A stretch of 46,193 bases of DNA, taken from the NCBI GenBank assembly GCA_012728915.1, contig JAAYEC010000008.1, forward strand, positions 1 through 46,193. The letters run 5' to 3'. Position 1 is the stretch's first letter. Each line of letters starts with the position of its first letter. Of the stretch, positions 18,718 through 24,452 are shown piece after piece. The translations under genes and the position numbers were made by a program. The notes below the pieces were generated by a model. The model did not search any database, was not told where the DNA came from, and worked only from the letters and a program-made list of their open reading frames with translations. This stretch comes from Deltaproteobacteria bacterium. GTDB taxonomy: Bacteria > Desulfobacterota > Syntrophia > Syntrophales > UBA2192.

Positions 18718-18910
18718 GGCAGACTCGGCCTCCCGGCAGCGGTGATGTTCCCGTTCAGGGTACCGGCCCATATCGCGCCTGTCAAGCCGGGTTTCGCGGA
18801 GGGGAAAGGGGCTTTAAATGCCCCTGTCTTTTGTGATAAGCTGCGATCGTTTTAACCCCGGGAGAAGCGTTTCCGACATGCGCGCCACCCGGGAAAAAGG
18901 AAGACGGGAC

Positions 18911-19747
18911 ATGACGCCACTACCCAACCCCGTGGATGAGTCCCGCCGGTCTCCGCTCCGGTGGCTGGCGGACCCCTTCGCCGCAACGGGCCGCAGGGCG
19001 ATCAACTGGGTCAACAACCTGGGCGCCTCGACGATCTTTCTTTTCCTGGGTTTTCTGAGGATCTTCCGTTCCAGGCAGATCATGAAGGTCCTGGAGCAGC
19101 TCTACCTGATCGGGGCGGGATCCGTCCCGATTATTGTGCTGGTGGGGCTCTTTACGGGCATGGTCCTGGGGCTGCAGTCCTACCATGCGCTGGTGAAGTT
19201 CGGCTCGCAGGGCGCCCTCGGCACCCTGGTGGCCCTTTCGCTGATCCGCGAGCTGGGCCCGGTGCTCACGGCCATCATGATCACGGCCCGGGCGGGTTCG
19301 GCCATCACGGCCGAAATCGGAAGCCAGCGCATCTCTGAACAGATCGACGCGCTGGGGACGATGCGCATCGACCCGCTGCGGTACCTGATCAGCCCGCGGA
19401 TCGCCGCCTCCGTCATCAGCTTTCCCCTGCTTACGGCCATCTTCGACGTGGTCGGGATCATCGGCGGGTACATCTCGGGCGTGGTCCTGCTGGGCGTCAA
19501 TGCCGGCACGTATCTCTACCGCGTCGAGTCCAGCGTGGACATGAAGGACGTCACCGACGGCTTCATCAAGGCGATGGTCTTTGCGGTGATCGTCACCACC
19601 GTGTGCTGCTACCAGGGATACTTCGCGCACATGCGGACAGACAGCTACGGCGCAAGGGCCATCGGACGCTCCACGACCGCCGCGGTCGTGATCTCTTGCG
19701 TGCTGATCCTGATCGCGGATTACGTGGTGACGTCGCTGCTGATCTAG
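18911..19747 (+). CDS. mlaE: MlaE: permease of the phospholipid transport ABC system
   Basis: 278 aa inner-membrane permease with about five helices. Family phrases are visible: GAGSVPIIVLVGLFTGMVLG, SLIRELGPVLTAIMI, ARAGSAITAEIGSQRISEQI (the coupling-helix region contacting the ATPase) and DALGTMRIDPLRYLISPR. ATG 18911 is chosen for its ribosome site (GGAAG); earlier in-frame starts at 18818 and 18878 are possible. It is the first gene of the Mla operon. It moves glycerophospholipid with MlaF and MlaD. No mlaB (STAS) gene is in the operon. Confidence 0.93.
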   Translation: MTPLPNPVDESRRSPLRWLADPFAATGRRAINWVNNLGASTIFLFLGFLRIFRSRQIMKVLEQLYLIGAGSVPIIVLVGLFTGMVLGLQSYHALVKFGSQGALGTLVALSLIRELGPVLTAIMITARAGSAITAEIGSQRISEQIDALGTMRIDPLRYLISPRIAASVISFPLLTAIFDVVGIIGGYISGVVLLGVNAGTYLYRVESSVDMKDVTDGFIKAMVFAVIVTTVCCYQGYFAHMRTDSYGARAIGRSTTAAVVISCVLILIADYVVTSLLI

Positions 19748-19818: not shown

Positions 19819-21063
19819 ATGGCAACCCCGCTGATCGAATTCAAGGACGTCTCGAAGCGCTTCAACGGCAAGACGGTGCTCGAGCGCGTCAACCTTCAGA
19901 TCTACGAGGGCGAGGTCACGACCATCATCGGGCTGAGCGGCACGGGGAAGACGGTGCTGCTCAAGCACATCATTGGCCTGCACAAGCCCGACGAGGGGAC
20001 CATCCTCTTCCGGGGACAGCCCCTGGACCGGATCCGGAGAGGCGATCTGCCCATGAGCTACATGTTCCAGGGCAACGCGCTGTTCGACTCCATGACGGTG
20101 TTCGAGAATATCGCCCTGCCTCTCCAGGAAACGACGAACCTGGGCCATGACGAGATCCGGCGGCGGGTCATGACCCGCATCGAGCAGATGGAGCTGGCCG
20201 ACGCCGTCCACAAGTACCCCTCGGAGATCTCCGGGGGCATGCAGAAGCGCGTGGCCCTGGCAAGGGCCCTCGTGACGGATCCCCAGATCGTGCTTTTCGA
20301 CGAGCCGACGACCGGCCAGGACCCCGTCCGCAAGAACGCCATCCTCGGCATGATCGCCCAGTACCAGCGCTCCTTCGGTTTCACGGCGATCCTGGTGAGC
20401 CACGAGATCCCGGATGTGTACTTCATCTCGAACCGCATTCTCGCCCTCTACGGCAAGAGCATCGTGTTCCAGGGGACGCCCGAGGAGTTTGAAGAATTCG
20501 ACCACCCCTTCAAGGAGGAGGTGGTGAACAGCCTCGAGGGGCTGCAGCGGGAGCTGACGGGGCTGCACTCCAGGCGGCAGTTCAAACTGAGGTACCAGGG
20601 ACAGCTGCGCGGCGGGGCCCTCGGGGACGCCTACGCGGTTGCCGTGTTCTCCCTGGACGGGCTCGACGCCGTGGCGGGGCATCTGGGGCACGACGCGGCG
20701 CAGGAGGCCCTCCGCAGCCTGGGCATCTTTCTGGGCAAGCACTTCGGGGCCGTCGGCGGCTTTTCCACCCGGCGAAGCATGAACGAGTACGTCACGGTCC
20801 TGCCCTCGACGGACCGGGCCGAGGCGGAGGGCATCCTGGGGGAGTACATCCGGGACTTTCAAGGGCAGGAACAGGCCATCCTGGACATCTGGGCCTCGGC
20901 GCAGAGGCATTCGGGCACCGAGCTGTGCGTGGAGCTCACCCTGCTGGCGGGGCTCGCCCAGGGCCGGCCCGATGAAGATATCGACGGGGTGATCGAATCC
21001 GCGAGACGGGACCGGCGCGTCATATCCCGGATCCGCTGCATCAACCAGGGAGAAGGCACATGA
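19819..21063 (+). CDS. mlaF: MlaF: ATPase of the phospholipid ABC system with a C-terminal GGDEF-like extension
   Basis: 414 aa. Residues 1 to about 245 are a complete ABC ATPase: Walker A GLSGTGKTV, signature SGGMQKRVALARAL, Walker B IVLFDEPTTG and the switch histidine in LVSHEIPD. The usual family length is about 250-270 aa. From about 270 a second domain reads AVAVFSLDGLDAVAGHLGHD, then GGFSTRRSMNEYVTVLPSTD, which follows the GGDEF fold; SMNEY at 320-324 replaces GGDEF, so it should lack cyclase activity. Its ATG 19819 follows the palindromic spacer; its stop overlaps mlaD by 4 nt. Confidence 0.92.
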   Translation: MATPLIEFKDVSKRFNGKTVLERVNLQIYEGEVTTIIGLSGTGKTVLLKHIIGLHKPDEGTILFRGQPLDRIRRGDLPMSYMFQGNALFDSMTVFENIALPLQETTNLGHDEIRRRVMTRIEQMELADAVHKYPSEISGGMQKRVALARALVTDPQIVLFDEPTTGQDPVRKNAILGMIAQYQRSFGFTAILVSHEIPDVYFISNRILALYGKSIVFQGTPEEFEEFDHPFKEEVVNSLEGLQRELTGLHSRRQFKLRYQGQLRGGALGDAYAVAVFSLDGLDAVAGHLGHDAAQEALRSLGIFLGKHFGAVGGFSTRRSMNEYVTVLPSTDRAEAEGILGEYIRDFQGQEQAILDIWASAQRHSGTELCVELTLLAGLAQGRPDEDIDGVIESARRDRRVISRIRCINQGEGT

Positions 21064-21530
21064 AAAAGTACGCCATGGAAACCGCCGTAGGCATTTTCGT
21101 TGCAATAGGGCTTCTGTGCGTGGGGTATCTCACCGTGAAGCTCGGCAACATCGGCATCCTCGAGGGCGACCAGTACCGCGTCCTGGCGAAGTTCAGCTCC
21201 GTCTCGGGCCTGCGGGCCGGGAGCACCGTGCAGATGTACGGTATCGAGGTGGGACGGGTGGACAAGCTCGGCATGGATGCCGAGGCCCAGCAGGCGCAGG
21301 TGGAGATGCTCATCCGGAAGGATATCAGGATCTACGAGGATGCCCTTGCGGCGATCAAGACGGAGGGGCTCATCGGCGACAAGTACGTGAGCATCGACCC
21401 GGGCGGCATCGGAGAGCCCCTCAAGCCGGGCGGCTCCATCATCCAGACCCAGGCCGCCGTGGACGTGGGCGACCTGATCAGCAAGTATGCCTTCGGGGAC
21501 GTCAAAAAGGAGGAGCCGGAAAAGAAATGA
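21060..21530 (+). CDS. mlaD: MlaD: MCE-domain lipid-carrying subunit
   Basis: 156 aa starting at an ATGA overlap with mlaF. One N-terminal membrane helix (VGIFVAIGLLCVGYLTVKLG) anchors it in the inner membrane. The MCE domain (YRVLAKFSSVSGLRAGSTVQ, then VGRVDKL) follows, with the conserved IKTEGLIGDKYVSIDPGG stretch and a short charged C-terminal tail. It should form the hexameric periplasmic ring that passes lipid between MlaC and MlaFE. Length is normal for the family. Confidence 0.94.
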   Translation: MKKYAMETAVGIFVAIGLLCVGYLTVKLGNIGILEGDQYRVLAKFSSVSGLRAGSTVQMYGIEVGRVDKLGMDAEAQQAQVEMLIRKDIRIYEDALAAIKTEGLIGDKYVSIDPGGIGEPLKPGGSIIQTQAAVDVGDLISKYAFGDVKKEEPEKK

Positions 21531-22135
21531 CAAGCAAGACGATGACGAAACGGTTGGCGATCGCGGTGAGCCTGCTTGCGCTCGTACTGGGCGCCGGGCC
21601 GGCGCGGGCCGCAGCCCCCCTCGAGACGGTGCGCGCCGAGGTCAACAAGGTGCTCGAGGTGCTGCGCAACAAGTCGCTCAAGGAGGAGGCCAAGCGCGAG
21701 AGGCTGCGGGTGATCTACGGCGAGATGTTCGACCAGGAGGAGCTCTCGAAGTGGTGCCTGGGCCGCAACTGGAACAGGCTGAGCGAGGACCAGCGCAAGG
21801 AGTTCCTGCCGCTGTTCCAGCAGGTCCTGGAGAAGACCTACGGTGACCGGATCCTCGCCTACTCCGACGAGAAGATCGTCTTCGACAGGGAACTGCCCAT
21901 CTCGAACAACCGGGTCGAGGTCCAGACACGGGCCGTCACGAAGTCCAAGGAGATCCCGATGCACTACCGGGTCTTCAAGAACAAGGGCGGGGCGTGGAAA
22001 TGCTATGACATCGTCGTGGAGAACGTGAGCCTCGTGATGAACTATCGCTCGCAGTTCAACGAGATCCTCGCCAAGAACAGCCCCGGCGAGTTGCTCAACA
22101 TCCTCCGGAAAAAGGTGAAAGACCAGAAATCATGA
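21527..22135 (+). CDS. mlaC: MlaC: periplasmic phospholipid-binding protein
   Basis: 202 aa. ATG 21527 overlaps the mlaD stop (ATGA). A signal peptide (RLAIAVSLLALVLGAGPARA) is followed by the Tol-Ttg2/MlaC fold with YGEMFDQEELSKWCLGRNW, EFLPLFQQVLEKTYGDRIL and the C-terminal phrase IVVENVSLVMNYRSQFNEIL. It shuttles phospholipid across the periplasm between MlaA at the outer membrane and MlaD. Its stop overlaps mlaA by 4 nt, so the last four genes are translationally coupled. Confidence 0.94.
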   Translation: MTSKTMTKRLAIAVSLLALVLGAGPARAAAPLETVRAEVNKVLEVLRNKSLKEEAKRERLRVIYGEMFDQEELSKWCLGRNWNRLSEDQRKEFLPLFQQVLEKTYGDRILAYSDEKIVFDRELPISNNRVEVQTRAVTKSKEIPMHYRVFKNKGGAWKCYDIVVENVSLVMNYRSQFNEILAKNSPGELLNILRKKVKDQKS

Positions 22136-23106
22136 GGCGTCTGCTCTGTGTCTTCGCCCTGTCCGTCTTCCTCCTCCCCGAGTTCGCCCACGGAGCCCCG
22201 GACTCGTCTCCCCCGGTATCCCCGGGCGAGGCGGCGGCGCCCGCCGCGGCGTCCGGTGCCTCGATCGTCACCCCCGCAGCGCCCGAACCGGCCGTGCGGG
22301 AGGCGGCGACGGCCCCGCCGGCGGGCAAGGACGGGGCGGAGGGGGACAGCGAGGCCGCAGAGGACGACTTCGACTACGACATGGAGGACGTCCCCGCCGC
22401 GGAGCAGGTGACGATCGCGGATCCCTGGGAGCCCTTCAACCGGGCCATGTTCACCTTCAACGACCGGCTCTACTTCTGGGTCCTCAAGCCCGTGGCGGAG
22501 GGCTATAGCGCGGTGGTGCCCGAGCCGGCGAGGGTCAGCGTGGGGAACTTCTTCTCCAATCTCCGGGCCCCCATCCGGTTCGTCAACTGCGTGCTGCAGG
22601 CCAACCTCATCGGCGCCTCCACGGAACTGTTCCGCTTCATGCTGAACAGCACGATCGGGCTGGCGGGCCTCTTCGACCCGGCCGGGGGCGAGGAGATCGG
22701 TCTGTTGAGGCAGGACGAGGACTTCGGCCAGACCCTCGGCGTCTACGGGGTCGGGCAGGGGTTCTACATCGTGTGGCCGTTCTTCGGGCCCTCGAGCCCC
22801 CGGGACACCGTGGGGATGGTAGGGGACTTCTTCAGCTACCCGATTTCCTACCTCGATCCGTGGTACGCTTGCACGGCCGTCCGGGGATACCAGGCGATCA
22901 ACGACACCTCCCTGCAGATCGGCGACTACGAGGCGATCAAGGACGCAGCCATCGATCCCTACGTCTCCATCCGCAACGCCTACATCCAGTACCGGCAGAA
23001 GAAGGTCGAGGAGCGAGGCGCGACCATTCCCAGGTCCGAACCCGACGTGCCCGGCGCGGGCACCCCGGCGCGAGGCGTGGGGACGGAAGCCGTCCCGCAG
23101 CAGTGA
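22132..23106 (+). CDS. mlaA: MlaA (VacJ): outer-membrane lipid removal protein
   Basis: 324 aa. Signal peptide (LLCVFALSVFLLPEFAHG) without an obvious lipobox cysteine, then an Ala/Pro/Glu-rich disordered stretch (about 22-95), then the MlaA core: DPWEPFNRAMFTFNDRLYFW, FFSNLRAPIRFVNCVLQ, RFMLNSTIGLAGLFDPA and LPFFGPSSPRDTVG-like FFGPSSPRDTVGMVGDFF. Classical MlaA is a lipoprotein; the missing lipobox is unusual. It would extract misplaced phospholipid from the outer leaflet. It ends the operon, with the intron remnant 129 nt downstream. Confidence 0.93.
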   Translation: MRRLLCVFALSVFLLPEFAHGAPDSSPPVSPGEAAAPAAASGASIVTPAAPEPAVREAATAPPAGKDGAEGDSEAAEDDFDYDMEDVPAAEQVTIADPWEPFNRAMFTFNDRLYFWVLKPVAEGYSAVVPEPARVSVGNFFSNLRAPIRFVNCVLQANLIGASTELFRFMLNSTIGLAGLFDPAGGEEIGLLRQDEDFGQTLGVYGVGQGFYIVWPFFGPSSPRDTVGMVGDFFSYPISYLDPWYACTAVRGYQAINDTSLQIGDYEAIKDAAIDPYVSIRNAYIQYRQKKVEERGATIPRSEPDVPGAGTPARGVGTEAVPQQ

Positions 23107-23665
23107 GAGGTTCAGGGAAGGGCAGGGGCATTGCAGGCCCGAGCCTCGCGAGGCGTGGCGATCTGCGATTGAGAAAGATCCCCCATGGCAAACACCTGAA
23201 CGCTTCCCCGCGCAACCCTGCCGGCATAGAAAAGGTGCAACCTGTGAGGGTTGCGCCTTCCTGTGGTGCGCCCAGCATGGGCGCAGTCTTGGAGGTGGAA
23301 GTTCTCCCACGAGTTGACCACGACGAGTGAAGCGAAGCGCAGCTGCGCGAGGGCGACCGAACGCGGGAAGGAAGCGTGGAGCGAAGCCGCGGGCCGACGA
23401 ACAGAAACCGGATAGGAGGCGACGCCCGGCAGGGCGAGCGGGCCAATGACCGCAAAGCTCTCGTGGTCGAGTCCGAGGCGGCATAAATCCGGCGGTCGTG
23501 CGGGGAAGGGCTGCGTTCTTACCTGGGGAGATCTCGCCTTGCGGCTGAAGGGCCGACGTGGCGACACGGAGCGAGAAGTCAGCAGAGACCGTAGTAGCGG
23601 AGGCGCGAAGGGCCGAACGGTGAGGAGAGCGAAACGGACGTGCGCCACGAAGGCAAAAGGCCCAG

Positions 23666-24129
23666 ATGACCGATGAGACGGAGCGGCCGCAAGGGAAGAG
23701 GGGTGAAGCCCCGAAGGCCCGGGAGGGACGGTGAAGCACCGCGTGGCCCCCAAGGTCATGACCGCCATGAAGGACCGGGTACGAGCCATCACCCGACGAA
23801 ACGGGGGACGGAGCATGGAGCGAGTCATTGAAGAACTTCGGGGGTATCTGAGCGGTTGGAAAGCGTACGTCGACCCGGCGGATACGCCCGGCGTCTTCCG
23901 GGAACTCGATCAAGGGATCCGTCACCGTCTCCGAGCGGTGCAACTCAAACAGTGGAAACGGGGTCGGACCGTCTATCGCGAACTTCGCGCCCGAGGGATG
24001 TCGAAGATCAACGCGGCAAAGGTGGCCGCCAATGCCCGCCGCTGGTGGAGGAACTCGGCCATGAGCCTGAATGCGGCCCTTCCGAACCGCTACGTTGATG
24101 GGCTGGGGCTTCCCCGGCTCGGAACGTAA
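23666..24129 (+). pseudogene. Group II intron-encoded protein, reverse transcriptase deleted, frameshifted
   Basis: A reading frame at 23666 gives the usual N-terminus (MTDETERPQGKRGEAPKARE) and stops at 23734. From 23731 another frame gives the maturase (domain X) and C-terminus: MERVIEELRGYLSGWKAYV, QLKQWKRGRTVYRELRARG, ARRWWRNSAMSLNAALPN and GLPRLGT. The full reverse-transcriptase part, roughly 250-300 residues in relatives, is missing and the frame changes at the join. The maturase part alone starts with a GTG and could still be translated, so a small splicing factor is not excluded. Confidence 0.83.
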
Positions 24130-24376: not shown

Positions 24377-24452
24377 TGGAGCCGATGTGGGGATTCGAAC
24401 CCCAGACCTGCTGATTACGAATCAGCTGCTCTACCGGCTGAGCTACATCGGC
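24377..24452 (-). tRNA. tRNA-Thr (anticodon CGU)
   Basis: 76 nt including encoded CCA. Acceptor GCCGATG pairs with CATCGGC, D arm GCTC/GAGC, anticodon stem GCTGA/TCAGC with loop TTCGTAA giving anticodon CGU (codon ACG), and T arm TGGGG/CCCCA with TTCGAAT. It stands alone with its own promoter and terminator. Confidence 0.97.

Follow-up and report, generated by a model that had tools for sequence, protein, structure and literature searches.

The window analysed here, a stretch of 46,193 nucleotides from a bacterium of the order Syntrophales, carries an mla operon whose MlaF ATPase is 414 amino acids long, compared with 269 in E. coli and about 250 in the short MlaFs of the Desulfobacterota. 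As a preliminary description of this DNA had noticed, an ordinary MlaF ends before the C-terminal part of the window protein (hereafter the tail), which raises the question of what this tail is and what it does on a transporter ATPase. The genes are ordered mlaE-mlaF-mlaD-mlaC-mlaA, with four-base ATGA overlaps at the F/D, D/C and C/A borders, and the features of the locus are as follows.

18818..19747, plus strand: mlaE, permease (PF02405, E 7.8e-78)
19819-21063, plus strand: mlaF, whole open reading frame of 414 aa, from the translation
19819..20529, plus strand: ATPase domain of MlaF, residues 1-237 (PF00005 at residues 21-165, E 1.9e-33)
20503..20583, plus strand: junction helix and start of the GGDEF domain, HPFKEEVVNSLEGLQRELTGLHSRRQF, residues 229-255, from the alignment with E. 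coli MlaF
20533..21048, plus strand: degenerate GGDEF-fold domain, residues ~239-410 (PF00990, Foldseek, VIA)
20650..20652, plus strand: Ser278 at the position of the catalytic metal Asp (PleD D327), from the alignment of 64 homologues
20776..20790, plus strand: SMNEY in place of GGDEF, residues 320-324, from the same alignment
21060..21530, plus strand: mlaD, short MCE protein (PF02470, E 8.2e-21)
21527..22135, plus strand: mlaC, periplasmic lipid carrier (PF05494 match at 21641-22111, E 2.6e-44)
22132..23106, plus strand: mlaA, outer-membrane lipoprotein (PF04333, E 9.1e-74)

Just 3' of mlaA lies the remnant of a group II intron, in which Rfam D1-D4 are matched over 23347-23518 and 23536-23613, and 23731-24129 encodes part of a maturase domain; the sole tRNA detected in the window, a tRNA-Thr (CGT), follows on the minus strand at 24377-24452.

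The ATPase half of the protein retains all catalytic motifs of MlaF in its translation, namely Walker A (GLSGTGKT), the signature (SGGMQ), Walker B (LFDEP) and the switch His, and over 231 aa it shares 37% identity with E. coli MlaF. The top NCBIfam match is the MlaF equivalog model, but at 180 bits against a cut-off of 441; the intact ABC motifs together with operon neighbours matching PF02405, PF02470, PF04333 and PF05494 identify the protein as MlaF.

C-terminal to this ABC ATPase, the mlaF product carries a complete GGDEF-fold domain. When the tail was searched alone against Pfam, GGDEF (PF00990) was the single family matched, with 25.7 bits against the curated cut-off of 23.8 and a match beginning at residue 246, while the full-length protein scored 23.5 bits, slightly below that cut-off. 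Searched one by one, 60 of 64 homologous tails match the same family (best E 1.1e-21, from a member of a divergent sister group), which, together with the predicted fold, argues that the match of the window tail is not due to chance. GGDEF domains canonically start with LTGLxNRRxF, and the tail contains ELTGLHSRRQF at residues 245-255 (LTGLHSRRQF, 246-255). The fusion of MlaF to a degenerate GGDEF domain proposed in the preliminary description is thus borne out, as is its reading of SMNEY as the counterpart of GGDEF, although the domain begins near residue 239 (~20533), about 30 residues ahead of the start at ~265-270 given there. A structural model of the tail, predicted with the 64-sequence alignment as input, has a mean pLDDT of 77.5. 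All 50 Foldseek matches listed for this model are GGDEF proteins, with PleD first (E 2e-7), and in the VIA alignment the model superposes on PleD over 166 residues with a Z of 15.5 and an rmsd of 4.0, so that the predicted fold is GGDEF. A model of full-length MlaF shows the same order of structural elements, but its overall confidence is low (pTM 0.51) and it therefore does not fix where the tail sits with respect to the ATPase.

An active diguanylate cyclase requires GG(D/E)EF, a metal-binding Asp and Glu, and a guanine-binding Asn and Asp, and the I-site is an RxxD motif five residues ahead of GGDEF. We mapped these positions through an alignment of the 64 homologous tails to active cyclases. 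The metal Asp position holds Ser in the window (S in 26, T in 20 and D in 5 of the 64), the guanine-binding Asn position Ala (varied elsewhere, with Asn in at most 3 of 64) and the guanine-binding Asp position Gln, as in 54 of the homologues. Both glycines of the motif are exchanged for varied residues across the alignment, so that no GG loop remains; the I-site reads AVGG, with Ala at the Arg position in 49 and Gly at the Asp position in 56 of 64 tails. The domain is therefore very probably inactive, as the preliminary description had supposed, its catalytic residues being gone in the window and similarly in nearly all homologues. An active diguanylate cyclase was rejected as a candidate on account of SMNEY and the Ser, Ala and Gln substitutions, and a c-di-GMP receptor acting through the I-site on account of the lost RxxD. 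Since the metal Asp, the guanine-binding residues, the GG loop and RxxD have all disappeared, c-di-GMP synthesis by the tail, or c-di-GMP binding at the classical I-site, appears very unlikely, and classical binding of GTP or c-di-GMP, which had been suggested for this domain, appears unlikely.

Conservation in the tail lies elsewhere. About half the positions of the junction segment (residues 229-255) are more than 85% conserved among the 64 homologues, and conservation is highest in the junction helix SLEGLQ-ELTGL, in the GGFSTR turn and at a handful of structural positions; no recognisable nucleotide motif appears in the top-conserved columns of these 64 tails. Arg318, just upstream of SMNEY, is invariant (64/64), and the motif Glu (Glu323) is retained in 50 of 64.

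The fusion is widespread among relatives of the window genome. Of 60 Syntrophales genomes sampled, the window's own among them, 28 have it, and in all 28 the fused mlaF adjoins one class of mlaE, two of these mlaE copies being incomplete where their contig ends. When 84,980 species genomes were scanned, 50 loci were returned, mostly in Syntrophaceae, Smithella and Syntrophus. Among 198 sampled genomes of the phylum, 19 genomes from 11 families contained 20 tail copies, each scoring at least 153 bits with a tail profile, compared with at most 84 bits for ordinary GGDEF proteins in the same sample. Wherever the extent of the contig allows, the tail-bearing mlaF lies within an mlaE-F-D-C(-A) operon. 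An assembly artefact or a one-off fusion is ruled out by this recurrence in many independent genomes.

In a tree built from 107 MlaF ATPase domains, every tail-bearing sequence falls into one group of 37 with a support of 100/100. Two members of this group have no tail: the MlaF of L122 ends soon past the first helix of the GGDEF domain, with mlaD directly 3', and that of L170 has a short C-terminal end unrelated to the tail. Because all tail-bearing MlaFs share one fully supported clade, the fusion most likely arose once, in an ancestor of several Desulfobacterota lineages, and was then lost twice. The tail-bearing branch is old and made up mostly of Syntrophales and other Desulfobacterota; among its members are also a contig binned as Nitrospirota (L080) and another, nested among Syntrophales, binned as WOR-3 (L078), and for these mis-binning is possible. 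One genome (G191) carries two tail-bearing mlaF genes on a single contig (L127:477 and L127:4731), one from each main subgroup of the clade. Pairwise dN/dS between same-genus pairs is about 0.16-0.26 for the tail and 0.09-0.19 for the ATPase; being well below 1, these values indicate that the tail is constrained by purifying selection.

Genes of a nucleotide-signalling type were observed near Mla operons whose MlaF has no tail. One supported clade of the 107-domain tree (100/99) comprises 11 MlaFs without a tail, and in nine of their operons mlaC adjoins a PF00027 gene, which encodes a cyclic-nucleotide-binding-domain protein of ~155 aa (L141:4980-5450, L144:5281-5775, L150:5389-5856, L163:6310-6783, L174:5047-5511 and four more). 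Three tail-less Mla operons have a gene for a PilZ domain, a family of c-di-GMP receptors, in their vicinity (L143:4680-5183, L177:7160-7600, L169:9118-9585). Neither type of gene was found immediately beside tail-bearing operons among the small neighbouring frames, and L046 has one weaker cyclic-nucleotide-binding-domain match ~3 kb downstream of mlaC. These neighbours, as predicted from gene content, may be a coincidence or a sign that the transporters tend to acquire nucleotide-type modules.

What might an inactive GGDEF domain do on MlaF? GGDEF domains of cyclases work as dimers. In our alignment, the tail begins exactly where the short C-terminal extension (CTE) of E. coli MlaF (residues 247-269) begins and thus occupies the site of the CTE. 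In E. coli the CTE wraps round the partner MlaF; a protein that lacks residues 247-269 is non-functional, but function returns to a substantial degree when a GCN4 dimerisation domain is attached at the C-terminus instead (PMC7367683). Mycobacterial MceG likewise has a C-terminal extension, of ~120 aa, which touches the adjacent MceG and is required for function (PMC9882608). Among degenerate GGDEF domains, those of PdeK and PdeR dimerise (PMC5635695), and BcsE uses its own to bind BcsQ (PMC7439463). Together, these results suggest that the tail may be a built-in assembly or dimerisation module, an inactive GGDEF fold fused once to MlaF in place of the CTE, a reading that we favour and to which we give about an even chance. 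A GGDEF domain was most likely joined once to the C-terminus of MlaF, displacing the short CTE, and has since lost its cyclase activity and classical ligand sites, yet it is kept folded and constrained. The two domains would hang from the last helix of each ATPase and touch one another or the adjacent ATPase, and these contacts would hold the MlaF pair on MlaE, which is the job of the 'handshake' made by the E. coli CTE; the tail might also offer a regulatory site. The earlier proposal that the domain acts as a dimer part is accordingly plausible from its position at the CTE site, and we infer that, by dimerising or by binding the partner ATPase, the tail would drive assembly.

Several observations count against such a module. 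Strong dimerisation was seen in only two of seven degenerate GGDEF domains of E. coli (PMC5635695). The L122 and L170 lineages dropped the domain and retained the operon, so the tail is dispensable at least there, and the short MlaFs of other Desulfobacterota, which have only a short CTE-like end, presumably work, so that a strong dimeriser is not generally required. The low confidence of the full-length model also weighs against this reading.

The preliminary description proposed instead that the tail stands in for the STAS protein MlaB, and its observation that the operon has no MlaB was correct, no STAS gene being found among mlaE, mlaF, mlaD, mlaC and mlaA. The tail would then fold back onto the helical subdomain of MlaF, the site of MlaB in E. 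coli, and stabilise it; in E. coli, the stability of MlaF needs MlaB, and the CTE is part of the MlaB site (PMC7367683). However, Pfam and the predicted fold assign the tail to GGDEF rather than STAS, and operons of the phylum that have mlaC and a short MlaF likewise revealed no STAS gene nearby. Among small frames beside mlaC-type loci (80-170 aa, no overlap with larger frames), STAS is not among the best 25 families listed for 15 tail-bearing loci (21 frames) or for 36 tail-less loci (34 frames), families outside these lists being weaker than E 0.017 and E 0.05, respectively. MlaB is, moreover, missing from most diderms (PMC10665443). The absence of MlaB therefore neither predicts nor calls for a tail, a survey of MlaF length against MlaB did not bear out the proposed replacement, and we regard a stand-in for MlaB as rather unlikely. 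The possibility that MlaB is encoded elsewhere finds a weak echo: other MCE operons of the order combine a short MlaF either with no STAS at all or with an MlaE to which STAS is fused. The window's genome has a separate system of the latter kind, with an MlaF of its own, and its remaining STAS proteins resemble anti-sigma antagonists, so that no obvious MlaB partner was seen among them. L103 (G000:C6), together with L104-L117, represents this second MCE system of these genomes, with STAS fused to the N-terminus of MlaE and its own short MlaF.

Alternatively, the remodelled active site or another pocket of the tail could bind a small molecule and tune the MlaF ATPase, linking lipid transport to nucleotide signalling. 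The invariance of Arg318 and the retention of Glu323 would suit a sensor of this kind, as would the predicted cyclic-nucleotide-binding-domain genes adjoining mlaC in nine operons of the related tail-less clade and the PilZ genes near three others, from which it follows that nucleotide-type modules recur around Mla operons. The loss of every classical ligand residue and the lack of a recognisable nucleotide motif in the top-conserved columns speak against it, and we consider it unlikely, if worth keeping in mind. A broader version, in which MlaB-less Mla transporters of the Desulfobacterota repeatedly took up nucleotide-signalling modules so that a nucleotide signal gates phospholipid traffic, with a new ligand site on the fused domain, strikes us as distinctly doubtful. 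Degenerate GGDEF domains commonly mediate protein-protein contacts (PMC5635695; PMC7439463), and the tail might thus recruit another cytoplasmic protein, such as an active cyclase or an envelope-stress regulator; we hold this to be improbable, as no conserved partner gene lies beside the tail-bearing operons, whose small neighbours match unrelated families, once each. That the tail is a decaying passenger without function would be consistent with its two losses, its decayed catalytic motifs and its faster protein evolution relative to the ATPase, but its complete predicted fold, its dN/dS well below 1, strongly conserved residues across 11 families and the recurrence of the fusion in 28 of the 60 Syntrophales genomes sampled make this very improbable indeed.

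For the Mla complex of E. coli, the control parts described on the cytoplasmic side are MlaB and the CTE; that most diderms lack MlaB raises the question of how their Mla transporters are held together or regulated. As an assembly module, the GGDEF fold at the CTE site would, by analogy, suggest a third solution to the same need, besides the E. coli CTE and the MceG extension. A conserved domain on MlaF, placed precisely at the point where E. coli MlaF accepts a dimerisation domain as a substitute, permits a direct test. Our full-text literature search, which left subscription papers and preprints largely outside its reach, returned no paper describing MlaF and GGDEF in one protein, nor a description of a GGDEF domain recruited as a non-catalytic part of an ABC transporter.

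Compared with known systems, the window protein joins a known transporter ATPase to a domain that is likewise known, though degenerate; what is new is their combination and the position of the domain. It shares with MlaF of the E. coli MlaFEDB complex a homologous ATPase, the partners MlaE, MlaD and MlaC and the starting point of the C-terminal addition, but E. coli has a 23-residue CTE and MlaB, whereas the window has a GGDEF fold of ~170 residues and no MlaB. Mycobacterial MceG is also an MCE-type lipid transporter ATPase with a long C-terminal extension contacting the neighbouring subunit (PMC9882608), although that extension consists of helices and flexible linkers rather than a GGDEF fold. 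The tail resembles the diguanylate cyclases PleD, WspR and SadC in fold and overall sequence pattern, yet it lacks their active-site and I-site residues and is placed behind an ABC ATPase. BcsE, PelD and CdgI are dead GGDEF folds that serve regulation or protein contacts (PMC7439463, PMC5635695), but unlike the tail these three retain an I-site that binds c-di-GMP. A transporter polypeptide with a GGDEF-like region is also found in an ammonium transporter (PDB 8qj3, 8qj4, 8qpf; weak sequence match, E 0.012), where that region is carried by the ammonium transporter rather than by an ABC ATPase.
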